From Henricia sp. BOLD:AAB3569 (taxonomy: Eukaryota > Echinodermata > Asteroidea > Spinulosida > Echinasteridae), in NCBI GenBank assembly GCA_037783545.1, contig JBBELK010000216.1, positions 62,001 through 126,000 of the forward strand: DNA of 64,000 bases, written 5' to 3'. The notes under the pieces were generated by a model. It saw nothing but the letters and a program-made list of their open reading frames with translations. It was not told the DNA's origin and searched no databases. A program made the position numbers and the translations under genes. Shown one piece after another: positions 1,441-64,000 of the stretch. The stretch's first letter is position 1; every line of letters starts with the position of its first letter.

Positions 1441-4400
1441 ATGGCATCACACAGTGCCAAGGTGGCGTTCTACACCAATCTGACAGGAACAAGCCCTCTT
1501 GAGGTAGCCCTGGTTGTTGCTGTTGGACCGGCTTCTGAGCTGGTGCGATGGGTCCTTGTGCCTTGCCTCATTATGGTGTTTGGAAGTGTGGTTAAAACAT
1601 TTTGGTAAATGTTTCCAACATTTGAATCCTTTTAATTTTTAATGGGGTTTGGGGCGTATCTTAGGTGATCTCTGGGAGGGGTGGTTATTTCTCTGTAGGG
1701 CTTGCTAAGCTCACGTGATAGCCAATCCCAATCAGTGAGAAACAACTGCAATATACTGTGATTCGAGACCACCAGTTGGCTTCATAGCTCAATTGGTAGG
1801 GCGTCTGCACGTTAAGCAGAAGGTGCTTTTCACTGCAACCAGATTTCCCTAACTCATATGGACATTTGTCCACATTTGTATCGAATTCATTCACCCCGAC
1901 GGTCCCTGGGTAATGGTGTTAGTACTGTTACACTGGAATTTCACTTGTGTGAGTGGGATTGTGTCTGCCAGTGAAAACATCTGTACATTTTGTTCTTTAT
2001 TTTTCATTGGTTGCGAATTTTGCTATGGGTTACTATTAAGCTTGGTTACCATTCACTAATCTAGATTTGCAGGCCCATTCATTTATGACTCCTGAGGCTG
2101 ATTTCACAAAGCGCTAAGATGCATCTTAGGAAAGGTCACTCTTCTTAATATCTTGGAACGTTGGTATGGGAATTAGGACGCATTTGTGAAATCGAACCCA
2201 TGGTCTTGGTCATCATACCCTTTTGCATATATCTTGTGTGTTTTCATTTTTTAACAGAAGCTTCCTTTTTGAACACCAACAATTCATTCACAATTGGCAA
2301 ATGGCAGTGCCCTGTGATTGGTAAAAACAATAAGGCCTAAAAGAGAAAGATTTCATCAATGGCCATTTGAGAAGACTTTTACAAACTAAATTTAACCAAA
2401 CTGTGGGATTTACTTCTGTGAATTCTCCCTTTTCTAAACAGGTTCAGTTTTGCCGTGGATTTTGCCATCCTTGTTCTCCCTCTTCTGTCTGCCCTCACCG
2501 TTTGGAGCGGAAACCTCAAGATGTTTTTAGTTGCACTCCTTGTGACTTCTACAACCCTTCTCCTGGCAGCTTACATCTTTCAGCCGATGAAATCCCACAG
2601 GGCAAAACGGCCCTCTAAAGCAAGTACAACCACACCAAGACACCTGTGGGAGCTCCCCCTGGAATCGGAACACCCATTCTTCATGACCATGTTTCGTGTG
2701 CATGGAATGGTTGCTTCAGCTATTACTATCCTGGCCGTTGACTTTCCAGTGTTCCCAAGAAGGTTCGGAAAGACGGAGGTGTATGGCACTGGGTTGATGG
2801 ACATTGCTGTTGGTGCTTTCATGTTCATGAATGCACTGGTCTCTAAAGAGGCACGTGGAAAACACCAAGTTATATTCAGGTACATCAAATCTTGTTAATA
2901 AGAGGTGCTTGTTTTAAAGGCACAGGCTCGTCAGCCATCGGCGCGCACCAAATTCGTGCCATGAAATATGCAGCTCCATGCCTTTCCCTTTGCTATGGAG
3001 CTGCGTATTTCGTGGCACGAATTTGGCGCGCACATTGCTGACGAGCCTGTGCCTTTAACGGGAACCTTGTATTACCAGGACTGAAAACAATGAAGAACAA
3101 GAAATTCCAACCAAATATTTTTCTTGTTTATATGTAAACGGGGGTGGTTTTTGGTTGAGCTCGAGATTGCCAGCTGAAATGAAGGAGACACGAAAGAGTG
3201 GTGGTCAGAATTGATGTTGTAACAGCACTTTAATTAATGACAAAAAAAGAATAATAATACAAAAATAAACAATCTTTCTGGGAGGGGTGATAAATTATTG
3301 CGAATTCTTAAGATTAGGCTCTACCGGACCTGTCAATGGAACTGTTATACAAAATACAGTTTTTAAAAAAGGGGGCGGTGTCAAAAGATCTGCTCTTGTA
3401 ACAATCTAAAGGGGCACCGTTTACATATAAACAGAATGTTGTATTAACAGTGCTCTCATTATCCGTCCGACTGTATTTTGATAATGAGGTTAGCAGCAAC
3501 AAGACTAAGAAGACAGAGTGTCGGGTTCAGTTCCCAATTGAGTAGAAGATTCTACGTTCAACTTGTAATTAAATTAAACTAAATCAAACTATTCATGTTG
3601 ATAAATTTTGTGTTTTCTTGACAGTTCAGGAATTGTGGCAGGCATGAAGTCTCTTGTGAAGACACTGACATCCACCTTGCCTTTCATTCTGCTTGGTGTA
3701 GTGAGACTTGTTGGCGTCAAAAGCACCGGATACCATGAACACGTCTCTGAATACGGCCTACACTGGAATTTCTTCTTTACGTTAGCTGTTGTGATCGTAA
3801 GACTTAATTTATGCATTTGAGTCTTATGCTGGTATATGCTAATGAGTCCAATCACAATGTCTTTAACTCGCTATACCTCATGCGACAACTCATAGATACT
3901 TTGATGGTATAGGATTAACTGTTGTCAGAAAATACAGAAGGGGCATGCTTACAGAATTTGCATGACAGATTTTCAGCCATAGGCAGGGTTGTAATAGATC
4001 CTTTGCACCGGCGGCCATGACAGAGGGCAGGTTTTTATATTTAAATGATGTGACAATAGATCCACAAAGTGCCTACTCGTGCATGACGCACTGTGACAAT
4101 GTGACTGCCCTCTGTCATGGCCGCCGTGCAAGGGGTCTATACTGGTAACTCGACTCAGTCAGTTGGACCCGAGTCTGACTAGAGTCACAACTTTTGACAA
4201 CTTGCCCCCAAGTTATTTTACTTGACTTATGTCTCGCATTAAAAGACTGGGCTAGAACTTCTGACCGTAATGAATTGTAAGTTGTTATTCGAGTCCGTCT
4301 CGAGTCACATTTTTAAAAACTTGTCCGAGTCTCGCATTCCAAGGCTTACGATTTTTGATTTGCGTCTTCTTTCCATGTTTTCTTTCAGACTCTCTCCTCA

Positions 4401-6311
4401 ATAATCTTCCTCGTCATTCCGCCCAGTCTGAGTGGACTGCTCTCATTGGCTGTTGCTGTGGGTTACCAACATCTCTTGTCCAATCACAGCTTGGGACAGT
4501 TTGTCCTCCACGGCAGTGATGGGAGAGGTAGCAGGGAGGGTCTACTTGATGCCAACCGGGAGGGAATTGTTTCCTGTGTTGGATATGTCGCGGTTTACTT
4601 CGCTGGTGTGTGTGCTGGCAGGTTTCTCCTTAAACGAAGGTGAGATTTCTAGTCAGTGAAATTTGCTACTTTGCAAAGACAAAAGAAACTACAGGACAGA
4701 ATGAAACAATCGTTTCTCCTCAAGACGGGGGAAATTGTGACAAGTGTCTGCAAGGAATATTTTGCTCAAAGTGAGTGCAAAATTATTTACAAGTACTCGG
4801 TCAAGTCTATCACAAGAACATAACTGCTTCAAAAAGGTATAAATTTAGGACATGCACTTCACACGCAGTTCATATGGTAGCCACTCAGTTTATCATAAAT
4901 TGCCTCTCTTCTTCCAAAGCAAATGTGTACTTGTGAGGGCAGTGTAGGTGTTGTTTGATTAGCTCATGACCGCCAGGGCTGTATAGTCCCCAGGGAGTTA
5001 AGAAGGTTCATTTAAGGAAGGCTATAAAGATCCCAATGACCAGGGGTAATAATGTGGAGCACCATGATACATGTGATATGTGCGCTATATAAATATCCAC
5101 ACTATTATTATTACAGCCACCAAACAAATTTACCCACGTTCTCCTCCATCCTTGTCCCCCACAGAACGCTGTTCCTTGATTGGTGGTTGGCATTCCTCTT
5201 ACTAATTGTCATCAATGTTCTGTTGTGGATATTCTTGGAAGCGACATCAACTTACATTGAGCCAGTCTGCAGACGGACGGCCAATCTGCCTTACATTATT
5301 TGGACAGTGAGTTTATAATATGGTTGTTTTCCGACCACTGATTCGTAACAATATGCAAGAGGTATAATATACCAGTACTTATTTTTAATGCATTTTATTA
5401 CACTCTGAAATCTTTTTAATTTTTATTTATTTATTTATTTGTTTACTTTTTTGGCAGCTCTCATTTTGCATGCAGCTGTTGGCGTCCTACATGCTGGTTG
5501 ACATCATCGTCGCCGTGAGTAAAGAATTCATCTGGAGAATGCCCCAAAAGAGCTCCAGGTCAAAGAGCAAAGGTGAAGGGTCATTTAAAATGGTCGAATG
5601 TGTTATTAGAAGCATTGACACTTGGCTAGAAGTCAGTCAGTACGAATTTGAGGGGAATTGTTTTTGGTTAGTTTTAAATATGGTTTTTGGTTATCCAAGC
5701 TTTGTCATTTTTTCTTCCTCTTCCAATAGACCGTATCGAATAGCCGCCATTTCGTGGCCACCTTTTTTTACTTAAACCGTTTAACAATGGAATAACAATA
5801 TGTGCAACCATGCATGTCCTCAATGAACAAAGATACTACCCCACGAAATGGCGGCTGCTCGATACGGTCTATACTGTGCATCACCTCTTGGAAGTATATT
5901 TACACAACGGTTGGTCAGCTCTCAAACATAACAGGCGCGAATCTCAGAAGCATACAACACATGTACAAGACAAAAAACAGACTAGATTGTGGTATGATGC
6001 AATATAATTTGTTTTCCATTTTACTGATATATGCCATGTATAACAACTTACTTTTTGTTTTTCATCCTTTCTCCTTTTCAGCCGCTAGTAACCCCCTGGT
6101 TCCAGACTCCATCCTCATCTCCGCTCTACGGCCAAACCTCCTCCTTGTATTCCTCCTGTGCAATCTCCTAACGGGTGTAATCAACCTGTCTATGGACACT
6201 ATCAACCAATCACCAGCCATCAGTGTCGCCGTTCTGGTTGTCTATATGCTTGGTTTGTGCTTAATGGCACTCGCGCTGCATGCCAAAGGCATCAGGCTGA
6301 AATTTGGCTGA
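1441..6311 (+). CDS. PIGW: PIGW, GPI-anchor inositol acyltransferase (multi-exon)
   Basis: Coding exons are 1441-1604, 2442-2879, 3625-3796, 4389-4639, 5165-5306, 5458-5572 and 6082-6311. All have GT/AG borders and compatible phases, giving 503 aa, essentially the length of human PIGW (504). The family acylates the inositol of GlcN-PI from palmitoyl-CoA in the ER membrane, an early GPI-anchor step. Family signatures are visible: [17 protein letters not shown] in exon 2, [16 protein letters not shown] in exon 3, [11 protein letters not shown] in exon 4 and [12 protein letters not shown] at the exon 5 end. The protein is rich in hydrophobic helices, as expected for a multi-pass enzyme. The ATG follows an intron acceptor by 9 nt and starts [16 protein letters not shown], like known family N-termini. 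An AATAAA lies 51 nt after the stop. Introns carry repeats B1, A2, a SINE fragment and C1. Confidence 0.95.
1775..1850 (+). repeat. tRNA-Asn-like relic (tRNA-derived SINE head or pseudo-tRNA)
   Basis: TAGCTCAATTGGTAG resembles an A box. It is followed by an anticodon-like stem TCTGC/GCAGA with loop ACGTTAA, which would place GTT as anticodon. The T arm is not intact and position 33 is C rather than T, so it is not a functional tRNA. It lies in PIGW intron 1. Confidence 0.45.
2095..2200. mobile_element. MITE family O, copy 2 (degenerate)
   Basis: Imperfect terminal repeats: GAGGCTGATTTCACAAAG on the left and TTTGTGAAATCGAACCC on the right. The ends resemble the element at 51613-51737. Confidence 0.45.
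2914..3058. mobile_element. TTAA-flanked hairpin MITE family B, copy 1
   Basis: A near-perfect palindrome (arms about 60 bp) beginning AGGCACAGGCTCGTCAGC and flanked on both sides by TTAA, the piggyBac-type target duplication. It lies in PIGW intron 2, about 35 bp after the donor site. Confidence 0.85.
3995..4140. mobile_element. MITE family A, copy 2
   Basis: Ends read TAGATCCTTTGCACCGGCGG and, in complement, TAGACCCCTTGCACGGCGG. The core ACAATAGATCCACAAAGTGCC is shared with other copies. It lies in PIGW intron 3. Confidence 0.85.
4970..5118 (+). repeat. Truncated SINE with GCGCTATATAAAT tail
   Basis: CAGGGCTGTATAGTCCCCAG through CCAGGGGTAATAATG matches, in the opposite orientation, the body of the SINE at 59460-59822. 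It ends in GCGCTATATAAAT followed by ATT repeats, a SINE-type 3' tail. The ATT tail ends about 45 bp before the acceptor of PIGW exon 5. Confidence 0.55.
5727..5872. mobile_element. MITE family C, copy 1
   Basis: About 146 bp with terminal repeats TAGACCGTATCGAATAGCCG / complement. The interior (GGACATGCATGGTTGCACAT in complement) is shared with three other complete copies. It lies in the last PIGW intron. Confidence 0.85.
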
Positions 6312-8749
6312 CAAAGACTAAGATCACCTTTTTAGTGGGAAGAAAGAAAATGTTTATACAAAATAAAAATCTACCAATTAATGTGGATGTTCTCTCCAAC
6401 TTGTCTTTGTGGCTACTGAGTATCTGTCTGGTGCGGTTTACAATCAAACCTTGATAATAAGAGCACTGTTAATACAACAGTCTGCTTATAACGAGAACAA
6501 TTTTAGGTCCCAATTCTTTGTTCATAATTGTTTTAAAGCCCCATTATATCATTTGCAATTACCCAATTTTGTTTTTCATGAGTTGACAAGAAATGCCTTA
6601 CTCAAACACCACATTAATTTATTTCCGTCCAAAATGGTATTTCATGCTGGAAATTGACAACTGAAGGTGGTTTTCTAAAATCACTTGTACACAAAATCCA
6701 TATATAGATTTTCAAGGTTTTTTGAAGCATTGACGCATCTAAGTAGCTAAAATTTCTTCAGGCTAGTTTACCAACATTCTTCCTTTGATATAATTACACT
6801 CTTATTCCACGAATCTGTAAAAGTTTTATCTTGCAAATATACATAGGCCTTTAATTCCTGATAATACAATGTTTCTGTTATAACAAGGTCATCTGCAAAA
6901 GTTCTAATGATCTCTATCTTATTTATGAAGTTCGACTGCAATGTTTTTGTTTGTTGTGTCATTTTGTCTTTGAGAAATGGCTGTAAGCGAAGCTGTCAAT
7001 TTTACAAGAAAATCTAAGAAGGTCCTCGGAATCTTTCTACAATTTTGACTGCATAATGGTACTGTACACGGGTAGGTAGTACTGTTTAGATATGTAATAC
7101 CTGCACGTACAGTCAATATTCGAGTAGAAGAATAAATGTCACTGTGAAAATTGAATTGTCTGTAAAGTTCTTAGCTCTCAAATTTGAAACGATGTATGGC
7201 TTATGTCGCCGACTATTTAAATGATGTGACAATAAAAAACAAAATACCAGAAAAGGCGACTATATACGTGTATATATGCTAGCGCCTGCGGTTGCCCCCA
7301 ATATGGCCACTTTGCAAAGGGGCCAATGTCCCCGCACACTCTTGACCATGTTGGTCGGTTGGTGGAAATCTCTCTAACCGGGCTCTCTGATTGGTTGTTA
7401 AAACCGATGACTACGAACTGAATTTTTAATTTATGCGAATGTCTGGCTTGTCATTCGACTTTTTCGGATTCTGAACGAGATCTAGTGTATCACACGACGA
7501 TATATTGCTATAAGCATAAAATAAATATTTCATAATGGCTGTTTTGTGAAAAGCCATCTTTCCGATGAAATGTACGTAGTGCAGATCACGGCAAGTAAGA
7601 TGTCGAAGTTCCCGAAATAATAGGTTTCCGTGATAGAAAAATCTAAGGACGACGACATCTTGATTTGCGGATGTTGCCACTTTTGAATTAAAAAAAGGAA
7701 AATCTCAAGCAAATAACGTACAACCATGCACGATGTAGTAATATCGCTAAATATCCTTGGAAAATGACACTACGTGTATTTCCACAGAAATGTTCGTGAA
7801 ACGTCAGTCAACAATTTGTAACTTTTTTCCTCTCCCTTGGTCCATATGCCACGCCTACCCGTTACAAAAATAAGATTGCCTAAAAAGGCTATACACACGT
7901 AATTTGAGGCGATGATGCTTTTTCGGTTTTGTTTTTTGGTCAATCATGCATGTACATAAACCATGATAGGTTTATTCCGTCCTCCATATTCGGAGTTGCG
8001 CTCGAACTGAACTTAAAACTTCACTTCTGTATTGCGTAATTCCCGTTGTGCAGAACTAGAGTACATTTTGTTAAACTTTCTGAGACTGGAAACCGTTGAC
8101 TGTGGATGCCATTTAACTTATGAATAATTAGCAGCTTTGTGCAATGGACATGGGTGTGCTAGCATATTCGACGGCTGTTTTATGCACTCTTTCAACAACA
8201 GGCGCATTTTAAGTAAAATGTGCCACAATTTTTTGTCGCCAAAAAGTCAGATTTCAAGTTTAGTTGACTTTTTTGTTTTCAAGAACAAATATACATGTAT
8301 TCGGAATTATTTTCATTCGTATGGACGACATACGTGTTTGTGTATATTTTTCTCAATAAGTGGATCATTAATTCAATATTTTATATTATTTTATTTTATT
8401 TATTTTTTGGGGTGGCTGTTTTTTAAAATTTGTGGTGGTTATTTTATTAATTTTATATATTTGTACAAATATTGTTATCATCATCTATTTAAAAAAATAT
8501 TGTTAGTGTGTTTAATGTTTGTACACGTATTGATTGATTTGTTTAGTGGGAATTACATTGCGGTTTGGGACATTCCTAGATTGTATGCATACATAAAACA
8601 GTCGTCAGTACAGTTTACGCATGCGCTGTAAACTGGATTCGCGGGTTTATCATGGTCGTGAAGACGCCGTAGTTTGCGATTGGTAAAGTAACAATTCAAG
8701 GGTCGTGATCTTGCTGAAAATTTGACGGAATCGTTGGACAAATGCACAG
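6312..8749. other. Intergenic: PIGW 3' UTR and promoter-proximal region of the SAMD1-like gene
   Basis: Starts with the PIGW 3' UTR; AATAAA occurs at 6362-6367. The rest is AT-rich, with no convincing exon on either strand. The long open frame at 8137-8631 is made of Phe/Tyr/Ile-rich low-complexity AT sequence and has no coding character. A family A internal fragment (TATTTAAATGATGTGACAAT) is visible near 7213. Confidence 0.5.
8616..8626. promoter_or_regulatory. NRF1-like palindrome upstream of first exon 1a
   Basis: TACGCATGCGC matches the core of the NRF1 consensus (GCGCATGCGC). It lies exactly 134 bp before the ATG at 8750. The same 11-mer lies exactly 134 bp before the ATG of the second first exon. 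The match and spacing are seen; factor binding is inference. Confidence 0.5.
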
Positions 8750-9283
8750 ATGGGTTCCAGGACAAACCAGGAAGTGATTTTGGAAACTATCGACTCGCTG
8801 CGACGCCGCAAGGCCCGGCCAGATCTGGAGCGAATATGCCACATGGTCGAGCGAAAATATGGCGTTAGTGCAGCCGAAGTTGAATGCGAGTTGGAGCGCT
8901 TAGTGGACGATGAAGTCGTGTACAAAGTGGAGTACAAAGGTAGCACAAGCTATCGCAATGCCAGCAAATGGAAGAAAAGTCACCTCAGCGGGATTCTTCT
9001 TAACTCGGCCGATTCCAGCCGCTTACTCGTGGAAACAGTGAAAGAATTGAGCAGAGAGAATGACCAAAGCCGCGGAGTGGCGATTGAGAACATTGAGAAG
9101 CACCTGGTGGGCCTTGACCCTAGCACCAAACTGACCATCAAGATGAAACTACAGAATGCACTAGACAGAGAGGTATTTAGCGGTCGACTGGCCAAAGTGG
9201 CTAGAGGGATCTACGCGATGCCCACGGTACCACACACTACGGAGGAAACATCGGGTAAAGTCCAGCGCGTCAAGAAACGAAAG
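8750..9283 (+). CDS. SAMD1-like alternative first coding exon 1a (tandem winged helices)
   Basis: Open from ATG 8750 to the donor AAG|GTAGGC after 9283; 178 codons, ending in phase 0. Residues about 4-72 form a SAMD1/KAT6-type winged helix ([20 protein letters not shown] ... YRNASKW). Residues about 85-160 look like a second, H15-like winged helix ([11 protein letters not shown] ... [11 protein letters not shown]). The exon ends in a basic KVQRVKKRK tail, a plausible nuclear localisation signal, just before the splice. It would join the exon at 17085 in frame. It is about 97% identical at nucleotide level to exon 1b through the winged-helix part (about 13 differences in ~475 nt), then has its own short linker ([11 protein letters not shown]). 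Without splicing the frame would end at 9307. Confidence 0.8.
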
Positions 9284-12200
9284 GTAGGCTCCTATAAAGT
9301 CTCATGATTATGCAGAACTTGCTTGATCCCTTAGTTCACGCATGGAGGAAGAAATGGTTCACGTCGTGATAAATGATATCAAACTTGAAATGTTGGTATT
9401 TGCTCTACGTCTGATTGATTTTTGGTAAATTAATTTTTAAAATGTGATTATTACGTAATATGAATTATCTTCCACGTGCATGTATCAAGTGGTGAAATAC
9501 ATGAATACAAGCGCAAAATACATGAATGTAAAATATCCGTTCTTGCATGCAAATTTATGGGCTGCGTTTGCACTTGCGCTGGATCCGGTTGACTGCATAC
9601 ACATCCCCCATATGCATGATGGGCACCGGTAATACGCGCACCGCAATGGCACCACACGCTACTTTACCAAGGACACTCAAAATTGCCGAAGTATGGAAAC
9701 GTTTGTATACAATCCTATCACCAAAGGCTGACAGAACAAAAACCTATTGACCCCTTTCGAACACGTGCGAATATGCAATTTTGGGAGTCAAATAATGCTG
9801 AGTCATTGTGGAAGCAATGTGCGTGCGCGTTGTGTGTCTCTCTGGTGGGCGCAACCATTGATTTACATACATATACTGGATACGCCATCTGGGAGTGTTT
9901 GTGTAGAAATGCGCGGCCGAACAATGGCGGCGCGTAGGGAGGGTATTAACGCGTCACTTTGCGTGCTTTGCTGCAGTACGTGTACAATGCATACGAACAA
10001 GATTGTTGTTTACCCTACTTTGAAAATGCACGCGCGGACGCGATTCCAGCCAGATGCCGTCTCCAGTTATTATATATAGCTCAATGGGCGCAACGCGGTT
10101 TAGTTCACCAATGGGAGCCTCATCCTAGCGCGTTACGCGCGTTATGGACACACACAACGCGCGCGCACATTGCTTCCACAACGACGCGGCATTGTTTTAC
10201 TCCCAAAATGACGTCATTGGCACGAGCTCAATAGGCTAGGTATAAACCTGAAGTTAAAGTGTTGCCGCTGTTATCAAAAAGTCCGTTTACACACGTTTCG
10301 GCATATGCCGGGTTAGAATTGCCACGTGCATGGTCTGCATGATCTGATAAAATGTACCATTTTTGAAATGCTCTCCGAATCAAGGGCGAATTTCAAAGGA
10401 ATTTCAAACAAATTGTTATCGGCTGTCTACTGCCAATTAAAATACCGCAAGTTGCGCGCATCGGCAAAAGTCTTCGAGAAAGCAGTTTTTATTTTTGCCA
10501 TTGCACGCGCATCGACAAAAAAAAACGTTTCTGGCTGTTTCGATACAAAAAAAACGACACAAATTACTTTAAAGGAGCGTGACTAGATCACATTTTTGCA
10601 CCCCCCCCCCCCCTCCCCCCTCCCCCCACACACACCTACCCATGTGTACATTACGTACGCACTGTGGACGTTTCTTTGTATTCGTGCACTTAAGAGAATT
10701 GGTCGGAAAATCGTTGTTTTCTCCAAATTCTTCCCTCATCCACCCCAATTTTTTTCCTAATCCATGTTTCTAAACTTTACTCCTGAACCCTAACCTTTTT
10801 TTAACCCTCCACCCCCACCCTAACCCCTTTTCCCAAGTTGGGACAACATGACTGTGGACTTGAGCGAACGAGTGCAAGTCCACAATCCGTCACTTTTTCC
10901 CGCAAATTGTGGACTTGAATGGGTTTCGAGTCCACAGTGCGACCGCAATGCCCACACACACACGGTTCTGCACACACACGGGTTCCTTAAAAGTGCCCAT
11001 TGCATCGCTCGCAAGCGTGAGAAAACCCATGAGGAGAATTAGAAACGGCCAGAGACACCGGGGAATAACTCTTCACGAAAGAATGCTCTGGGATCTTTAA
11101 AGTGCATGCAGTACCTAACACACTGGACCAACGGCTTTACATCCCTTCCGAAGGATGGAGCAAGTGTGTTTAGGTGCCTAAGCTTGCTCAAGGGCACAGA
11201 TATTATACTACCCCCAGCCGGGTATCTGTAACCCCGTTTTCACCCGAGTAGGCTACTGCGAATCATTGATAACATTGATTAATATTGTTCGCATTTCATT
11301 CCTCCATGGTGTGATTGGAAAAACAGAGGACGTAACAGAAAGACGTAAAGCTTAATAATATTTGCGGTCGGAAGATATTTTTGTTGCATGGACCGACTCG
11401 CGTATAAACGCGTACGCGGCGGTTAAGCGGCTGGCAGTTGGTACATGTACGTGTCGATCGCGATCCGCACGGCCTGTATTCCTCGGCATTCTACGACTGT
11501 TGTATTATGTTTTTTGGTAATCGCAGATTATACAGTGTACATTGTAGTACATGTAGTATGATTCCGTGCATTTTGACTTGAATCTCTGTGTTATTATAAT
11601 ACTTCCGAGTTTAAGGCCATAAGGGCATGTTCAGTTGGATTAATTTGTGTTTGCCTTCAAAACGTGGTGCATAACACGTTAATGTCACAAACTTATGGCT
11701 GCGTTCGGGCGTGCAGTTCTCGTTACTCGGGAGTAATGCGTGCGCATTGCACTCGGGTCACATCACGCGAACGGCAAATCCGCAGTCCGCGTGCGCGAAT
11801 GGCAAGTGAAGATGGACGTCTCTAGCTCTTGCCATCACTGTACAAAAAAATGCCGTTTCATTGCTCACAAGAAACTGAGGAAATACAGGCCGTAAGTCGT
11901 GAGAACCTTTGATGCCGTCTAAAACAAACCTTAGTGAGTTATTGTTTCAGTTATTGAGTTGACACGTTGGGCAAATTCACCAAAAATCCCACCCATATTC
12001 CGCCATCTTTGTACAAATCACATGGCACTTGACAGGAGGTACGAGCACACTCCCCATTTGTTGGAGAGTAGTGAGAACATACTGGCTGCGTTCGGGTGTG
12101 TACTCGTGTTAACACGAGTTATACTCCTGCGCGCGTGAACGGCAAGAATAACGACACTCGGGTCAGTGAGAGTATGCTCTCACTACTCCCCAACAAATGG

Positions 12201-15200
12201 GGAGTGTGCTCGTACTCCTGTCAAGTGTCATGTGATTTGTACGAAGATGGTGGGATATTTGGTGAATTTGCTCAACGTGTCAACTCAATAACTGAAACAA
12301 TAACTCACTAAGGTTTGTTTTAGACGGCATCAAAGGTTCTCACGACTTACGGCCTGTATTTCCTCAGTTTCTTGTGAGCAATGAAACGGCATTTTTTTGT
12401 GCAGTGATGGCAAGAGACGTCCATCTTCACTGATTGCCATTCGCGCACGCGGACTGCGGATTTGCCGTTCGCGTGATGTGACCCGAGTGCAATACGCACG
12501 CATTACTCCCGAGTAACGAGAACTGCACGCCCGAACGCAGCCCATGAGTGTCGTTATTCTTGCCGTTCACGCGCGCAGGAGTATAACTCGTGTTATAACA
12601 CGAGTACACGCCCGAACGCAGCCAATTAGTCCAGCACTAGTATCACACATAGCCGATGACGTAGTTACTGAGACACAAGATGCGTGATATTGTAAACGGT
12701 GCATCGGGTACACGTATGTCGGTAGCGTAGACAGGATTTAAAAAAAATTATTTTTTATTTACACCATTTTTAGACTTATTTCAAGCCTGACTTCGTGTAT
12801 AATGTACCAGTTATGCATAGGGTCATAGGGTACTTCCCATAATAGACCGTATCGAATAGCCGCCATCTAGGGTCATTGGTCATGACTTCTAAATGTGCGT
12901 CCGTTGCTATTAGAGGTGTATTTTGCATTAAAATAATATTGCCCTGAAGTTTGCACATAAAACAGCCGTTCAATGCAGTCTTTGACTGAGTACGCATGCG
13001 CGCACGCTGATTTCGCGGGCCGCTGCTTATTTGATAACGACACAATACTTTGCGCGTGAAAACCGAACATTTATCGTGATTTTGTCGACTGAAAACACAC
13101 CCAAACTGTTCCGCAAGTACACAAATGGGTACTAGGACAAATCAGGAAGTGATTTTGGACACTATCGACTCGCTGCGACGCCGCAAAGCCCGGCCAGATC
13201 TGGAGCGAATATGCCACATGGTCGAGCGAAAATATGGCGTGAGTGCAGCCGAAGTTGAATGCGAGTTAGAGGGCTTAGTGGACGATGAAGTCGTGTACAA
13301 AGTGGAGTACAAAGGTAGCACAAGCTATCGCAATGCCAGCAAATGGAAGAAAAGTCACCTCAGCGGGATTCTTCTTAACTCGGCCGATTCTAGCCGCTTA
13401 CTCGTGGAAACAGTGAAAGAATTGAGCAGAGAGAATGACCAAAGCCGCGGAGTGGCGATTGAGAACATTGAGAAGCACCTGGTGGGCCTTGACCCCAGCA
13501 CCAAACTGACCATCAAGATGAAACTACAGAATGCACTAGACAGAGAGGTATTTAGCGGTCGACTGGCCAAAGTGGCCAGAGGCGTCTACGCGATGCCCAT
13601 GAGGCCGGAATCTCGGGCTCAGCAACGGACCAACAATGAAACATTCAGTAAGGTCCAGCGCGTCAAGAAACGAAAGGTATACTGATGAAGACCTGTTCAT
13701 TAAATAGGCTATATCGTTATTACTTCATCTGTATTTTTTCCTCATTTGGTAAGGATTGCAGCTGCAACTGACTGAAAAATCCAGTAACGAAAATTGTAAT
13801 TGGTTTTTAATTGATCTTTCTTTAATCTAAGTTTTTGTTGGCTAGTATCCGTTGCAAACGTGCAACTGTATCCAAATTTCAAATGTGAACATAGCCTACT
13901 TTGTGCAAATTATTGTGAATGGTATAATTGCCGCTTTTAAGTTTCATTAAGTTATTTTAAAGTTAAATCGAGCGTATTTTACACAGCGGACAACGATAAA
14001 GTGTCCTGTGCCATTATTATACAACAAAACCGCGTGTTTACGTTTGTTTGCTACACCTGGAGTATTCATGAATATTCATTAGGTTATTCCGGAATGCAGT
14101 GTTTGCAAGCAGCGTTTATGTTTTGGATACGCGCGTGTGCACATGTACTATGTACATGCATACGTACGTGTACATGTACACGCCGTATAATATGCACGTA
14201 GGTTGCGTGGGCGGACGTTTTTGCGTGTTTCAGCGAACCATGAAATAATGTTAGAGGCCTTTTAATTGGCATTTTCAGTTAACAATAACAGCACCGCTTT
14301 TTAAAATTCTCCCAAATTTGTACTTAACAACATTTGTTATTAACAATGGTTTGTGCCCAATTTCCATTGTTAGTTGCTCATATAGCCTACTCATAGTGCT
14401 ACTTGGCCAGACACGGGGGAAAGGTGCGCCCGCGCTCCTCCCCCTGCTGGATGTATTTACGACACGACCGTATATCCTGTGGTCAGTGTGCTAAAATTGG
14501 GTTTTTTGTGTGTACCAATTGTAATTCCATCAGTGGAATGTTGTGGTTGTCTCTTCTTTGTGGTGAATATCAGATTTTCCCGCATTTGTTCACTTTGTTT
14601 CGTTTATTCTGTTTTCCTATATTTGATTGTTAACTTGAGCATCCCATGCATTTTATCACGCGGATCGAATCGGTTTAGTTTGCACAGGGTGTGACACGGA
14701 AACTATGCGCGATGGCCGCATTATGCACGAGATGCGTCCGCCACTCAGACGTACGTGCACGCACGTGCAGTTAGACCTGACAAAAATAGTGCCAAACTCA
14801 GGAGCTTTTCATCTGACGACAAACGATGTACATTTCATTTCGCACAGGAACTAAAATTAATGTCTTTTTACCCCGTGTTTCCCGCTGGAACCTAGTCTTT
14901 TTTATTAGACCTTGACCCGTTAAGATTCTTCTATAATGTGTAGGCCTACTGACTGTACTACTAGTTCACACGCAGCGCGCGTGACCTAAACCGCACCAGC
15001 CGTTGACACAAGTAGTGTGCGCGGCCGGCATCGTAAGTTGTACATGTAAAAAAAGTATTCGCTCCGATCCGCGCTCGCTCGTAGGGCCAGGGTGAAGCTA
15101 AAGGTTTTTCGGACGACGCAAGTAAACAACAAAATACATGATTTTGTATAATTTCACAGCATAGTCGCCCTTGTCACAATCACAGAAGAAGGGAAATGGT

Positions 15201-18200
15201 TGCCGGGAAATCATGTCGTCGACGTCACAGGATGAAATTAAAACGCGGCTGCAAATAAGACAAATTCCGCACCGTTATTAATTTGGGGAAAACGTTTTAT
15301 AAGCAATGCTGAGCAATGGTAAATTAAAATAAATACAGAATCCTGGGTCAATCGAATATTGTCTGTAAACCCTACGCGGATGTATGTATCCGCGTGCAAA
15401 ATCATTTTGGGTCAGTGCGTAGGCCTTAGTATAAAGAGGAGAAAAAAAGAGAAAAATCGGCACTTTTAACGACTCCAACTCGTGTCGGCAAACCGGGATA
15501 GACAAACGGGTGGGTCTGTCCAGCAACACAGCAATGACACATCAGCGCATGGGACAAACTCCTGCGGGGTCAAAATGGACGCTTGCATTTCCGTCATGCT
15601 CCACTCGCGTCGCCGTATTCTTTGATAACCGATGTTCTGTTTTTACCAAACGTTTAAGCTAAGAATGAACATTATTTTAGCTTTATTATTCCTTTCAATC
15701 AAGATAGCCTACCTTGTGTTTTTATGCCCAAGTATAAGGTTATTTTCCGCACTTTTTATCCCACGGCATTGGCATTTAATTCAAAGGGAAAACAGTTAGC
15801 TAAAGAAAAACGACCGCCAACCCATCGATTGAGCGCGCGCCAACGCCACCAACTCAAAATTATGCGATTTTCAATTCAGAGCGAAAGATAATGTCGTTCA
15901 TTCGGCCTCGGCTAATAACCTAAATTATCTGATGATACATTGATAGAAGATTCGTTTGCGGGAAAACTCAAGGCCATTATGGACATTTAAAACGGCAACT
16001 TTGTTCATCTCATATGTCACACTTCCCGAACCTATAAATCGCCTACGTACGTACGCAGAACAACGTCATCATGGTTAGAAACCTTTCGACCTTGCACACA
16101 CACACACACGATACGATTACCACACAAGGCATGCGGCACAGCAGTCGAAGCGCGGCAAAAAAAAAGCGCGCCGAATATGCTAATGAGTTACGGTTGGATG
16201 TGTCACAGATTGGCGCGTAATATTGCGCGCGGTTCTAGACTGTACGATCGCATCATGGCACTTCAGTCAAATATGTTGTAGATTTACGCAAAATCCGCTT
16301 GAGCAAAACCTAGTCATTGATAACGTTCATTGATTGCTGGCTTACTGGTTATGCTACAATGTAGGCCAGTGGCCTACTGCATTACTTTACAAACAACGAC
16401 ATCACATACGTTGGATTAAAACGAAAGCGAGGTATTTCTGCTGGCGCATATAATGTAGGCGCATATAATGTAGGCCTATATAGTTTCTAGATTTTTGAGT
16501 TGCGCTTTTGCGTCGCCTTTTGTGAAGTTCTTATCCGCTTTTCAGTGTGTCTCATTTCCGTTTAAATACAACACACGTCATTATTCCGGAGGACGAGGAC
16601 GATGGCTTTGTGCGCCGCCATTTTTATTATCGTAAAAAAGTGTTAAACTTTGACAGTGAAGGCCATATCGGAGCTAGTTAGAGGTTGTGTGCGTGACACG
16701 GTGACATTGTATTTTGCCGTATATGTGCGGGTCCCATGTTAGTACGGTGAAGCTAAACTGAAAAGTTGCCGGTGCTGCACTAGCTGCGCTCTGCCGATCG
16801 ACGCGCGTAGGCCTATTTAGGCTTTTTTGTCAATTTTCCCCATACCAAGTATCATTTACATATTTTAACAGATGTGTTTTGGACGTTTTGTAGGTATTTA
16901 TTGTAATAATCGTTTGCAAAAACTTGTTTTGTAAATCATTGCATTTGTCATGATTTTGTTTGTTGTTGAAAAGGGAAGGACCATGTTTGTGAAAGATCAA
17001 AGGATTTCTTTAATTTGTGCTTCGCTCCATAAATGTCCTACATTTAGTCAACCGTAGCTTCATTGATTTTTTTGTACCACACAGCGCATCCGTAAGACCC
17101 ACGGCCCTGATTTCGAGCACGAACCACTCTGCAAACAGCCGTCGTATGACCAAAGATGCGACTACTGCTCACTCAGGGCAAGCTCCAATCGATTTGGCGA
17201 AGCCGAAGAATTACTCGTGTGCAAAGACTGCAGCTTAAAAGGTAAAGATATCAAAATAACTGCTGCATAGTGGCTCCAACATTTAGCCTATGGTGCACGG
17301 TGTTATGTGGTCTACGGCTGTTGCCAGAATGGTCAGTTAATAGTTGTTGAATAAGGTGTGTGGCTCTGTGCATGGCAGTCGGCCAAAATATCGTTCATTT
17401 TTTTTAACGTAGAGCCAAACAGTTAGTTACGTATGTACTTTGGCGCTTTATAATGAAACAAGTGTTCAGAAGATATCCTTAGGATTTTTAAAATGTAATT
17501 TCTGAAGAAAAAAACTTTATTGCGGACGCAAAACAAGCTTATTTGCATGTAACATCTTTGACATTACTTTTTTTTAACCTGCCTTTTTAACATTGCTTAC
17601 TCTTGCTCAGCAAAGACTTGACTCACTTTTTTTTATAAAAACCTTAGGTAAAACAAAAACTTTTTCGCATTACTCATATTGATATAGGCCTACATGTATT
17701 TTTCTTTCTTTTGACCGTTTAGTTCATCCATCATGCATGAGATACTCGGCCGAATTGGCAGAGCGTTCTCGCCTGTCGCCTTGGCAGTGCATGGATTGCA
17801 AGACGTGCTTGGTTTGCAACGAGTCCGGAGACGCCGTAAGTACATCACGCGTGGGGTATGCATGTGCGTCACAATATGAATATTCATGAGCCATGAAAAC
17901 GTGCACGTCGGCGGTGACATATATGAATAAATAAATCGTTATCTCAAGCATAATTTATATTTCACCGCGTTGGTATGTCGTTTCAAATTGAACGATGATT
18001 GTAACCAACCCAAAACATGCAATAGAACCACTTTCCAGATAAACATTGGTTTCCCATCAATAATTGTACGATTATTCCATTCTTACGCTACAGGACAAAC
18101 TGCTGTTTTGTGACTCCTGCGACAAAGGTTACCACATGGCCTGCCACTACCCTCCGGTATTTAAAAAGCCAGAAGGTTGGTCAAGTATACATATAAAGTC

Positions 18201-19848
18201 TTTGTTTTTAGTTAAGAAAGTAATTAATTAGCATATTCATTTCATTTCTACAAGATGGCAACATATTTTATAGGGTACGTTTTATAATGATGATATTGTT
18301 CCCTTTTCAGGAAAGTGGGTGTGCTTCGCTTGCGAGAGAGATGAGGAAATGGAGTATTACTCAAGCGATGGTAGCGTCGTGTTGTCAAGTAACGAAGGTA
18401 ACGTCCCTGTGTGTCACAACGTGTCACGCATGTGACAGATGTTGTTCATTAATGACCGATTCGTAATTTTGGCACGTCTACGTGTACATTACGCTATAAG
18501 GTAAAACACTATACGTAAATAACGTAAAAGCGAATGCCTTTTTGGCGTCGCTAGATGAAAAGACGTACTAACTCTTCTAACAGTGGCATTCTAACTTGTT
18601 GATCTTGTACGATACGTCTTCAGTTTTAATGTAAGATGGTTATCTTTTATAAGCGGTTGATAATAAAGGTTTCCCATTGTCGGTTTTTGTCGGGTACGTA
18701 GGCCCGTTTTAATTCTTGCCATTAATTCTTCTTTCCGTAATTCACATTTTTATTTATAGATTTCTACAGTTTTCAGTCTTCCCCGTCCGAGCCAGGGCTT
18801 GTGCTACCGCTTAATGATGCTTCGAATGAATTAAGGTATAGAAATATATGCAATTTAGACTTATAGGATAAATGTCGTTATCGATGTATTTTGATCACGT
18901 TGCATTACCATTTTGCCTAAAGCCGGCCTAACACTATGCAATTTTTACTCAGAATTGTTCACGATTAGGTATAAGTTTGTAGAGATTGTACCTGATGTGT
19001 CTATATAGAGTCTGTATGTTCAGTCTCGGGTAATATCAACAAATCTTACCAAATTGTTGAATTTCGTAGCAAAAATCCACCGGCTTAACAATAACAAATG
19101 AGCGTTTGGCATTGCCAAAGCATTTGCCACATATAATATTTAAAGCTGTTGCAAGCATGTAAGAATTATTTTAATTTGGTATCTAAATTTTCACCACGCA
19201 TGCAGCGCGGTAGCGGGTAAAATCAGCCCTGACGTAGCCACTCCGAGCCTATCTAACGCCGCTAGTCTTCCGGAGCAGTCGGCATCAGCAGGAGCTAGCC
19301 GTGATTTTCCCATGACTGACCCCTTAAAGTGGGGCATAGAGGACGTGGTCAAGTACTTCACGGTACACGGATTCCCGGAACAGAGTCGAGCTTTCCAAGA
19401 ACAGGTGCATAATCTTTTGATTCCTTTTGAAACAAAAAATTTATCAAAAGTATCTGTGAGCAACAGCGGCCTGAAGAAATTTGTGGTGGAAAATGGGTAG
19501 ATATATCGAAGTTTTGCGTGGTTATTTAAGAAAATGGCATATGTGTACATTGGCATATTGACATCACTAATCCTAAACTGATTGTTCAACTTTAAAAAAA
19601 AAAAATTTTCTCAGGAAATTGACGGCAAGTCTCTCTTACTCATGAAGCGCCTAGACGTTTTGACAGGCCTTTCCCTCAAGCTAGGCCCGGCTCTCAAGAT
19701 CTATAACCACGTAATGAGATTGCAGCTGTTCTGTAAACACGGTAACAAGGCCAAGATGGAGAAGAATGGCAAGAACGGCTCCACAGGCTCAGGATCAGTT
19801 AAGACGGCTGCGAAAGCGTCTACGTCTAGCGCGCCCACAACAAAATGA
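8750..19848 (+). CDS. SAMD1-like chromatin reader: winged helices + double PHD finger + SAM
   Basis: Alternative first exons 8750-9283 or 13125-13676, then 17085-17241, 17723-17835, 18094-18175, 18311-18397, 18760-18835, 19206-19404 and 19615-19848, all in compatible phases; 493 or 499 aa. Order: tandem winged helices, basic linker, double PHD finger of MOZ/DPF type (CDYCSLR ... LLVCKDC ... HPSCMRY ... [12 protein letters not shown] ... [16 protein letters not shown] ... WVCFAC), an acidic/serine linker, then a SAM domain ([10 protein letters not shown] ... [12 protein letters not shown] | [16 protein letters not shown]). The SAM matches SAMD1/SAMD13. Vertebrate SAMD1 binds unmethylated CpG DNA through the winged helix and represses with KDM1A. 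KAT6 proteins use the same winged helix and PHD pair but end in a MYST acetyltransferase, which is absent here. Nuclear function is inferred. AATAAA at 20190. No gene symbol is given because one-to-one orthology to SAMD1 is unproven. Confidence 0.88.
9741..10231. mobile_element. Inverted-repeat element G
   Basis: Ends read CCTATTGA ... / ... TCAATAGG. Arms of about 100 bp share, in complement, TTTTGGGAGT, TTGTGGAAGCAATGTGCG and GCGCGTTGTGTGT. Non-autonomous; no open frame resembling a transposase. Confidence 0.6.
10600..10627. repeat. Poly-C tract
   Basis: Almost uninterrupted run of C with single T interruptions. Assembly length here may be unreliable. Confidence 0.8.
11036..11225 (-). repeat. 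SINE body fragment (minus orientation)
   Basis: CACTGGACCAACGGCTTTAC, CATCCCTTCCGAAGGATGG and TTGCTCAAGGGCACA are shared with 46890-47085 and, in the other orientation, with 61563-61812. CCAGAGACACC and the flanking AGCGTGAGAAAACCC are also shared with the 61.5-61.85 kb copy. The tRNA-like head is not intact. Confidence 0.65.
11697..12542. mobile_element. Fold-back element F, outer pair (arms about 380 bp)
   Basis: The left arm (11697-12083) starts GGCTGCGTTCGGGCGTGCAG. The right arm (12166-12542) is its near-exact complement, including AAAAAAATGCCGTTTCATTG and CTTGTGAGCAATG. Arms are roughly 97% identical by eye, so insertion or copying was recent. No transposase frame. Confidence 0.8.
12084..12624. 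mobile_element. Fold-back element F, second pair interleaved with the first
   Basis: An ~82-bp arm at 12084-12165 (GGCTGCGTTCGGGTGTG ... ACTCGTGTTAACACGAG) recurs in complement at 12543-12624. The order of arms is A, X, A', X', so the two pairs cross rather than nest. Both use the same GGCTGCGTTCGGG terminus. Confidence 0.75.
12843..12870. repeat. Solo end of MITE family C
   Basis: TAGACCGTATCGAATAGCCG followed by CCATCT, then unrelated sequence. The partner terminal repeat is missing. It lies about 255 bp upstream of the ATG of exon 1b. Confidence 0.65.
12991..13001. promoter_or_regulatory. NRF1-like palindrome upstream of first exon 1b
   Basis: TACGCATGCGC, identical to the site at 8616-8626 and also exactly 134 bp before its ATG (13125). 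A second shared upstream word, CATAAAACAG, lies further 5' in both copies (8592 and 12956). Confidence 0.5.
13125..13676 (+). CDS. SAMD1-like alternative first coding exon 1b (tandem winged helices)
   Basis: Open from ATG 13125 to the donor AAG|GTATAC after 13676; 184 codons, phase 0, joining the exon at 17085. The winged-helix part is nearly identical to exon 1a. Amino-acid changes are few (S3T, E13D, R50G, I158V, then a different linker). The linker after YAMP is [17 protein letters not shown], longer than in 1a, before the shared KVQRVKKRK end. It is the closer of the two first exons to the rest of the gene (3.4 kb). An in-frame stop follows at 13683, so splicing is needed to make the full protein. 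Confidence 0.8.
14330..14381. repeat. Hairpin family M, half copy
   Basis: ATTTGTTATTAACAATGG then TTTGTGCCCAATTTCCATTG, matching the right half of the complete hairpin at 50377-50463. Confidence 0.55.
16600..16630 (+). promoter_or_regulatory. YY1-like GCCGCCATTTT in a CpG patch
   Basis: GCCGCCATTTT at 16614-16624 within locally CpG-rich DNA about 460 bp upstream of exon 17085. It could mark a downstream promoter giving a PHD-SAM isoform without the winged helices. Motif seen; function inferred. Confidence 0.25.
17085..18397 (+). CDS. SAMD1-like gene: double PHD finger exons
   Basis: Four exons (17085-17241, 17723-17835, 18094-18175, 18311-18397) encode a tandem PHD of the KAT6/DPF type: Cys pairs CDYC, CKDC, HPSC, CMDC, CLVC, CDSC, then H and C in GYHMACH and the closing CFAC. 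The phases are 0, 1, 0, 1, 1. In the KAT6/DPF family this module reads acylated histone H3; that activity is inferred from the family, not shown here. Confidence 0.88.
19206..19848 (+). CDS. SAMD1-like gene: SAM-domain exons and stop
   Basis: Exons 19206-19404 and 19615-19848 carry the SAM domain, split at QEQ|EIDGKS. The match to SAMD1/SAMD13 is strong ([34 protein letters not shown]). SAMs of this type form oligomers in SAMD1; that is family knowledge. The C-terminus is a Lys/Ser/Thr-rich tail ending APTTK at 19848. Confidence 0.88.
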
Positions 19849-61937: not shown

Positions 61938-64000
61938 AATAATTTTCCCCTACCTCCATCAGTGTCATATCTGTCAAACTGAATCATCAGCTCACTTATA
62001 TTGTCCATTGAGATGAGGTCACTCAGTGTTTCCTGTAACAATACAAACAACTTTTAGATTTTCATTAACAACAGAAGGTATAGGACCAGTAAGGGGGCAG
62101 GGCCATGTACCATGCTGGGTATAGACCCTTTGCACTGGTGGCAATGTTAGAGGGCAGGTTTTCTAATGTACTCATGCATGATGTACATAGTGACAATATG
62201 ATTGCCCACTAAGATGGCCGCCATATGCAAAGAGTCTATATGTTGACAATCGGACACGCAACTTACACAATCAGGACAAGTCCAGCCAACCTCTGTGTCG
62301 GCATTCTCCATAGCCTGGGATGAGTTGGTGTCCAGCCCTAAGCCTCGACCAATCAGGCATCCATGATGGAATGGCCGCCCACAAACGCGGCATAAAAACA
62401 CCGTGTCACGCTTGTACATCCGGCAGATTTCACATGGGTCCTCGGATTCCAACTTTTGGAGAAAAAAGGAAAGACCAAAACTTGATTATTAGTTATTGAT
62501 TTATCACAGTAGAAGGCTGAGTATGAAAACTCCTATAGAGCTTCTGCACCGGCACCCATGACAGGGGCAGGTTTTCTTATTTAAATGACAATGGAACCAC
62601 AAAGCACCTACTCATGCTTGACACACAGTGACAATGTGACTGTCCCCTGTCATGGCCGCCGTGCAAAGGCTCTATTCAAACCACTCTGATAACACAGCAG
62701 GGGCGGATCCAGGAATTTTTCCAGGAGGGGGTTTTGCCACCAGGGAGGGGTTTTGCCCATCAGATTTTTATGTCTGCTTGTTTCGGACAGACGGACACGC
62801 AAAAAATGCATTACATTATATTTTTTGGTGTCGGAGCAGGGGGAGGTTTTGACCCCCAAAACCCCCCCTCTGGATCCGCGCCTGCACAGCTAGCTTCTGA
62901 TCTTGCATTCCCAGGCTAAACTGAGTTTTCTCTTCAGGGCTCTCTTATAAATGCTATGCATGCATGCATCAGGGTTCAGGCACTTGGTTTCAAGACAAGA
63001 AAGAATAAATATCTCACACAATGTCTTCCTTTTGTACCTGCTCAAATACTGCATCATACTTGAGTTTTCCATTCCAGTCATCCAAGTTCAAGGCTTCCGA
63101 GACTGCTAGATTCTTCAGCTCCTCCTCCCGAGCTTGTTTCTTTTCTTCTTGTTCAGACAGAGCTCGGAGTGCCACTGGGGCCATATCAGGTTTGGCTCTG
63201 TTCATAACAAGAAATCATTCTTTAAAATGTTACTTTGATCTGACAAAGTTTGACAATTAATATTATAAGCACCTTCAGAAAAGAGCATTTTCAGAGCAAA
63301 ATGTTTTAACTACTTTTCACTTTGTCAAGTGGTCAGTTGATCAAATGGTCAACTTAAATCCCGGGCAATTCCAAAATGAATTTAATACTTACCAAAGCAA
63401 AGGAAACAGACCACATAACCAGGCTGCTGCAGCCCCCTGTTTTAACTTAGGCCGATAACAAATGTGTGTTTTTGTTGTTTGTATTTAAATAAGTCTGACC
63501 TGGAATAATTAGGCCTAACTTTGAAAAAAAAAACAGATGATTTTTCTTATGCCTTTATTCTTTGAACAAAAATGCAGTGAAAGCTTCTTCCGGGATGCAA
63601 CATAATTGAGAATATTAAGCTGCTTTTGCCTGAAATCTGGGTGATTCTCCTTTTTTAAGGCTGCGGTAAAATTAAAAAGGTAGGCCTATCCCGTCATCAT
63701 GCCAGTCGCTTTTCGCACACTCACACTAGTTTATAGTCACACTCAGAAGAAAAAGCCAACTTTTGAGATGACGATCGGCCGAAAATTTGATGCGATGTTA
63801 TGGGTGTTTTTTTCACAGACCAAAGACTTACACTTTAGATAAGAAATTGTTCCATCCTGATGATGTTGAAGGTTCACCACCAGTGTCCGTCGTGCTAGTT
63901 TGGTCAGCGTGACAACTGGGCCTCATCGCCCGGATGATCATGCTCAACCTCCCCACTCGTTTGGCTTGCGCTGCCGCTTCGTTCCCGTCACTCACCACAT
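59289..64000 (-). CDS. PHF24: PHF24-like PHD finger plus EF-hand protein, 5' end outside window
   Basis: Minus-strand exons: 64000-63832 (partial), 63197-63038, 62452-62267, 62032-61954, 61161-61055, 60852-60760, 60428-60289 and 59403-59289; all phases agree. About 349 codons are present. Order: Arg/Ser N-terminal part (VGRLSMIIRAMR ... STSSGWNNFLSKV), a charged helix (LRALSEQEEKKQAREEELKN), a PHD finger (CEICRMY ... FLCRVCGRPFHHGC ... GWTCPDC), two EF-hand loops (DTDGDSAITLPD split across two exons; DCDSDGVVTWGD), a third degenerate EF-like helix pair (LDNSNIGMITVGE) and the family-typical end ITWERFVVNKALALITARP. This layout matches vertebrate PHF24 (KIAA1045), a neural protein of poorly known role. 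No start codon is visible here. The gene is convergent with Tie. Confidence 0.9.
59460..59822 (-). repeat. Full-length tRNA-headed SINE in the terminal region of the PHF24-like gene
   Basis: The head at 59745-59822 has box B complement GGGATTCGAACCC; the body contains TTGCTCAAGGGTACATG and CTTGGGAGTATACAGCCC; the tail reaches an AT-rich ATT run at about 59460. It explains the fragment at 4970-5118. It lies in the last intron of the minus-strand gene. Confidence 0.65.
60610..60745. repeat. Family E fragment (copy 4)
   Basis: GAGATAACTTAGGCCCAAAA, ACAACATGCATTTCTAAAAA and GTGTACAAATGTCCAATATACG match the left arm of element E; the right arm is missing. Confidence 0.5.
61512..61862 (+). repeat. 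Tandem tRNA-headed SINE
   Basis: The tRNA-like head at 61564-61652 has a perfect 7-bp acceptor stem GGTACCG/CGGTACC, box A TGGCCGAGTGG and box B GGTTCGAATCC, but a poor anticodon stem. The body follows to about 61812, ending in the tail TTCTTCATGGGTTTCCTCAC. The same tail also precedes the head at about 61527-61560, so two copies are joined or the tail is duplicated. Confidence 0.65.
61901..61943. repeat. (AAT)n microsatellite next to a splice donor
   Basis: About 13 AAT/ATA units ending 11 bp from the exon border at 61954 of the PHF24-like gene. Confidence 0.85.
62120..62240. mobile_element. MITE family A, copy 7
   Basis: TATAGACCCTTTGCACTGGTG / complement ending CATATGCAAAGAGTCTATA; interior shortened. 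PHF24-like intron. Confidence 0.8.
62534..62675. mobile_element. MITE family A, copy 8
   Basis: TATAGAGCTTCTGCACCGGC left end, CATGGCCGCCGTGCAAAGGC right end; 140 bp. Same gene as copy 7, neighbouring intron. Confidence 0.85.
62698..62884. mobile_element. hAT-like MITE
   Basis: CAGGGGCGGATCCAGGAATT / complement of TCTGGATCCGCGCCTG, the CAGGGGCGGATCC terminus typical of widespread hAT-type elements. No transposase frame. Confidence 0.7.

Follow-up and report, generated by a model that had tools for sequence, protein, structure and literature searches.

The window analysed here, i.e., 64,000 bp of Henricia sp. BOLD:AAB3569 (positions 62,001 to 126,000 of contig JBBELK010000216.1), contains a chromatin-reader gene that, judged from its sequence, probably has two alternative first exons, both preceded by a proximal promoter of their own and both spliced to a common body. 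Two homologous first exons, exon 1a at 8750-9283 (178 residues, ATG at 8750) and exon 1b at 13125-13676 (184 residues, ATG at 13125), precede one body at 17085-19848, all on the forward strand. The coordinates, frames and donors given for them in the preliminary description proved exact, including the KVQRVKKRK ending common to both exons, the phase 0 donor AAG/GT and the in-frame join to 17085. Exon 1a encodes a SAMD1-type winged helix (WH1), a KAT6-like winged helix (WH2), a short linker and KVQRVKKRK before the donor AAG/GTAGGC; exon 1b encodes the same module with a longer linker before the weak donor AAG/GTATAC. The common exons encode a double PHD finger (exon 2, 17085-17241, its start; exon 3, 17723-17835; exon 4, 18094-18175; exon 5, 18311-18397, its end), a linker (exon 6, 18760-18835) and a SAM domain (exon 7, 19206-19404, its start; exon 8, 19615-19848, its end, the tail and the stop). 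The gene models have 493 residues via exon 1a and 499 via exon 1b, with AG/GT introns throughout and consistent phases, and the downstream exons are single copy in the window as well as in 29 kb of a second contig, C105 (tblastn). With tandem homologous first exons and one constant body, the locus would belong to the variable-first-exon genes, a kind already known from protocadherin and Ugt1.

Transcripts starting at 1a are unlikely to include exon 1b internally, because no in-phase splice acceptor was found in the 135 bp scanned upstream of 1b, where the only AG is out of phase. The 1b frame is also closed above 13080 and opens only there, and tandem splicing from 1a to 1b was rejected on these grounds. 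In front of exon 1a an AG at 8748-8749 is in phase, and 40% of the 20 bases preceding it are pyrimidines.

A search of the same genome with 158 residues of exon 1a returned eight matches, four of them strong and placed two on each of two contigs, namely the exon-1 modules at C216:70750 and C216:75125 in the contig of the window and at C105:383168 and C105:378782. Two of the remaining matches were KAT6-like (contigs C451 and C386) and two had E values above 4. Contig C105 is colinear with the window; both first exons are present and open there with GT donors kept, and exons 2-8 show no gap and keep AG/GT. C105 was read as the other haplotype, and C451 and C386 likewise form a pair with 95-97% identity, so that the assembly would appear to hold both haplotypes. 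BLAST of the window against C105 gave 93.4% identity over 8364-9711, and the two haplotypes are identical in codons 1-88 of both first exons. The possibility of a misassembled or collapsed haplotype was rejected, since the complete pair of exons, flanked by diverged sequence, is present on each of the two contigs. A foldback element at 11650-12625, with a self-inverted match over 11697-12542 (87.7%) and two overlapping pairs of GGCTGCGTTCGGG ends, lies between the twin exons; it is absent from C105 and looks like an insertion polymorphism.

The motif TACGCATGCGC had been placed exactly 134 bp before each ATG, and it was indeed found there, at 8616-8626 and 12991-13001 on the forward strand, these being the sole exact copies in the window. 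The same spacing occurs in C105, i.e., the motif stands at -134 in all four exon copies. When one mismatch was allowed, three sites were counted in the window (shuffle mean 0.49; 3 of 100 shuffles reach three), and the count alone is not extraordinary. Genome-wide there are 1529 forward and 1557 reverse copies in 740.7 Mb, about 2 per million bases per strand, and yet in front of both ATGs it stands, within homologous sequence, at one common offset and on one strand; this placement is not due to chance and is explained by common descent. A conserved site at a fixed position thus precedes each first exon. The label NRF1-like is reasonable for this putative NRF1 target, in which ACGCATGCGC departs from the NRF1 consensus GCGCNTGCGC at a single base. 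According to PMC10810270, the same one-base change gives human NRF1 a Kd of 1.27 vs 0.31 uM, about fourfold weaker, and single changes in the NRF1 site lower reporter activity about threefold.

The motif does not by itself mark promoters. Its genome-wide excess (3086 copies vs 337 of the reversed control) was dropped as promoter evidence, as the site also occurs in repeats. Among eight other places sampled (the first eight listed of the 3086), a dispersed repeat around the site is common to three (L001, L004 and L005). The promoters of the locus have a single match to that repeat, a stretch of 29 bases covering the site in 1b (E 0.001); by this comparison the two promoters are not members of the dispersed repeat. 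In L001, L004 and L005 the repeat is 72-91% identical around positions 1300-1711, with repetitive reading frames adjoining, and C30:1457488-1464564 is an array carrying the 11-base site about every 283 bp.

The claim that most other upstream sequence has diverged needs a correction: the sequence has diverged but is not unrelated. The proximal promoter/5'UTR regions of exon 1a (8616-8749) and exon 1b (12991-13124), both on the forward strand, are homologous but differ by many gaps and mismatches. Their gapped global score over -134 to -1 is 199, which none of 1000 dinucleotide shuffles reached (mean 65.9) and which also exceeds the maximum of 112 among 200 random pairs of windows. Scores were relied on here because gaps raise the aligned identity, whose median is already 73% for random pairs of windows. 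With the site removed, the global score of the 134-bp block was reached by 0 of 1000 shuffles and the local score by 45. The evidence on possible homology farther upstream than the site is mixed: the score of the 80-90 bp before it was matched by 6 of 1000 random pairs, and that of -400 to -135 was reached in 1000 shuffles 33 times by the local measure and 86 times by the global one. Allelic differences number 1/268 in the two 134-bp promoters (0/134 in 1a and 1/134 in 1b) vs 28/809 just upstream (Fisher 0.0039), which is consistent with constraint on both. We infer that both promoters are probably used. The independent regulation first proposed for the two isoforms may apply; the proximal element is retained in front of both exons, and the donor of exon 1b is weak. 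Two upstream ATGs (8652 and 8742) follow the site in the 1a leader and none in the 1b leader, besides one ATG inside each site (8621 in 1a, 12996 in 1b); a translational difference between 1a and 1b is possible from this contrast.

It could be argued that the gene uses just one of its first exons and that the second is a partial duplicate on its way to a pseudogene or the source of a truncated protein ending in the intron. The donor of exon 1b is weak, as it scores 3.96 vs 8.45 for 1a and is the lowest of eight donors scored (with a vertebrate matrix); it is without +5G in the second haplotype too. ATTAAA stands at 13699, just 3' of this donor, and a stop is met within a few codons when either first-exon donor is read through. 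This explanation is nevertheless rather unlikely, as both frames are open in both haplotypes, codons 1-88 are free of allelic differences in either copy, the promoters differ at only 1/268, and the interval 9283-13125 has no AATAAA, only ATTAAA at 10436 and 12927. A separate truncated gene at 1a was rejected as the main reading, given the lack of AATAAA in this interval and of a second copy of the downstream exons nearby.

The coding cores of the twin exons are 97.2% identical, with 13 of 471 nucleotides differing over 157 codons (nine synonymous, four not), and the synonymous divergence is 0.057 for codons 15-150 and 0.091 for all 157 codons. The last nine codons of the exons differ at one site. 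The linkers differ by 18 bases in length. The first description, that the isoforms differ only in a linker, is nearly but not quite right, as they also differ at S3T, E12D, R50G and I154V. Differences were found at 9/105 synonymous sites of the core vs 35/122 aligned promoter positions (Fisher 1.6e-4). The linker is also more diverged than the silent sites of the core, less strongly than the promoter (Fisher 0.030). No similarity above chance was detected between the first 134 bp of the two introns (1000 shuffles), and a farther intron stretch is at most marginal, with a score reached by 728 (local) and 35 (global) of 1000.

The differences between the copies are unevenly distributed when the two haplotypes are compared. 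Codons 1-50 have eight fixed and no polymorphic sites, codons 51-152 have no fixed and seven polymorphic sites, and codons 153-157 have two fixed sites and one polymorphic site; Fisher's test of codons 1-50 against 51-152 gives 1.6e-4, with breakpoints chosen after the data were seen, and the 18 sites together give 0.0027 in a run test. One polymorphism is shared by both copies, T/C in codon 143, a single transition that could be recurrent. Within codons 51-152 the copies on one haplotype differ at three sites and the alleles of one copy at four, and copies compared across haplotypes differ at five (a1-b2) and three (a2-b1). Polymorphism there amounts to 4/306 per copy, and in 1b two of the variants change an amino acid. 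Under constraint, polymorphism should be reduced along with divergence, and gene conversion is therefore the better account of codons 51-152 (13275-13580 in 1b, with 8900-9205 in 1a as partner, forward strand), the likely recent conversion tract; since the copies on one haplotype are as alike as alleles, constraint alone does not account for the similarity. These few sites in two haplotypes suggest that the first exons were kept nearly identical by copying of sequence from one to the other, and their near-identity need not mean a recent duplication. The proposal of a duplicated promoter-plus-exon unit feeding one body is supported, with both copies open in two haplotype contigs and 1b without an in-phase acceptor. 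The single-duplication history that it implied is incomplete, however, because outside the coding core and the last codons the copies are no longer highly identical, which looks like conversion acting on an older duplication.

Selection at the nucleotide level, for an RNA or DNA function inside the exon, could also have held the core of an old duplication identical without conversion. The absence of allelic differences from codons 1-88 and the single difference in the last nine codons would agree with such selection, but codons 51-152 are polymorphic within the copies, amino-acid changes included, with nothing fixed between them, and this explanation is very unlikely. A recent duplication alone, with a young core and the rest diverged through selection or insertions, fits the low synonymous divergence of the core but is highly improbable, given that the homologous promoter is far more diverged than the silent sites of the core (the linker less strongly so), that the introns at their beginnings are no more alike than expected by chance, and that it is only an inner tract that lacks fixed differences.

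From its N terminus, the predicted protein carries WH1 of SAMD1 type, the KAT6-like WH2, a double PHD finger of KAT6/DPF type and a SAM domain of SAMD1 type. WH1 matches PF21524 at 6.6e-29 and 5.2e-28, and also 6lui. The SAM domain matches 6luk (7.2e-25) and 6luj (9.2e-25), and scores 20 bits with Pfam SAM_1, under the cut-off of 23. PF24971 (SAMD1_SHD) was listed for exon 1b only, at 16.4 bits for the whole and 17.8 for a segment, both below the cut-off of 27, and not for exon 1a. WH2 is KAT6-like by one BLASTP alignment; searches of its sequence against PDB and Pfam found little, and structure prediction without an alignment gave low-confidence models (pLDDT averaging 61.5 across the full exon and 57.7 across WH2 taken by itself), the list of folds covering residues 1-78 only. 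The N terminus has the WH1-WH2-double PHD arrangement of KAT6, its WH2 part by that single alignment. No MYST domain is among the 11 Pfam families listed at E up to 1 for the 493-residue model. That the gene is KAT6 itself was rejected, since the KAT6-like N terminus occurs on contigs C451 and C386.

The gene is like SAMD1 (atherin) in having both a SAMD1-type winged helix and a SAMD1-type SAM domain, and unlike it in the double PHD finger and KAT6-like second winged helix that stand between them. To our knowledge, SAMD1 has no PHD finger. Unlike KAT6A/KAT6B (MOZ/MORF), the protein has no listed MYST domain and ends in SAM. By domains alone it resembles Drosophila Lint-O (CG2662), a co-repressor of L(3)mbt, which according to PMC9535798 has two PHD fingers plus SAM. 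In that paper the SAM domain of Lint-O is needed for L(3)mbt binding, the word "winged" occurs 0 times, and the human counterpart is left open by the authors. The terms invertebrate, Drosophila, PHD, MYST and KAT6 are all absent from PMC8175269. The domain order is a lead on the relation among SAMD1, KAT6 and fly Lint-O.

As for the mechanism, an older duplication would have copied promoter and exon 1. The 5'UTR, linker and introns would then have diverged, and gene conversion would have preserved the near-identity of the coding core, most recently over approximately codons 51-152. By analogy with its relatives, WH1 may bind unmethylated CpG DNA, WH2 and the double PHD finger may engage the nucleosome and the H3 tail, and the SAM domain may pair with an L3MBTL-type repressor. 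The two promoters would then place almost the same reader under two kinds of regulation, the two versions differing slightly in the linker, residue 50 and splice strength. A wider combination of ideas is possible though, taken jointly, quite unlikely. The twin units would stay in step by ongoing conversion of the DNA-binding exon only, and the promoters would diverge round a fixed GCGC-containing site to which the gene's own protein could bind, so that dosage would be autoregulated in two settings. In its WH1-WH2-double PHD-SAM layout the protein would combine the half of KAT6 responsible for targeting with the half of SAMD1 that contains SAM, and its body would be similar to that of Lint-O in the fly.

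Like the protocadherin, Ugt1 and Gcnt2 clusters, the locus has tandem homologous first exons and one constant body, and unlike them it has two members only, encodes a nuclear chromatin reader and yields almost identical products. According to PMC1885805, a conserved motif lies at about the same place before each variable exon of Ugt1, and gene conversion is predominant in the variable exons of protocadherin; no prevalent conversion was found in Ugt1, so that conversion is not general in variable-first-exon genes. The present locus would share the motif before each first exon with Ugt1 and conversion with protocadherin. It is unusual for its gene, a chromatin reader, and for the apparent role of conversion in keeping both products the same. 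As one two-promoter gene with conversion on the coding exon and its neighbours spared, it is a compact candidate.

Reading frames of other genes were noted in the window. Upstream, at 2422-6311, frames match Pfam GWT1 (3.3e-35 and 4.7e-15) and indicate a PIG-W-like gene. Downstream, at 33716-54232, frames encode EGF, immunoglobulin, three fibronectin type III and tyrosine-kinase segments, apparently of one receptor tyrosine kinase, which we take to be Tie-like. On the minus strand, a frame at 62147-62482 matches Pfam zf-RING_15/KIAA1045 (2.1e-12).
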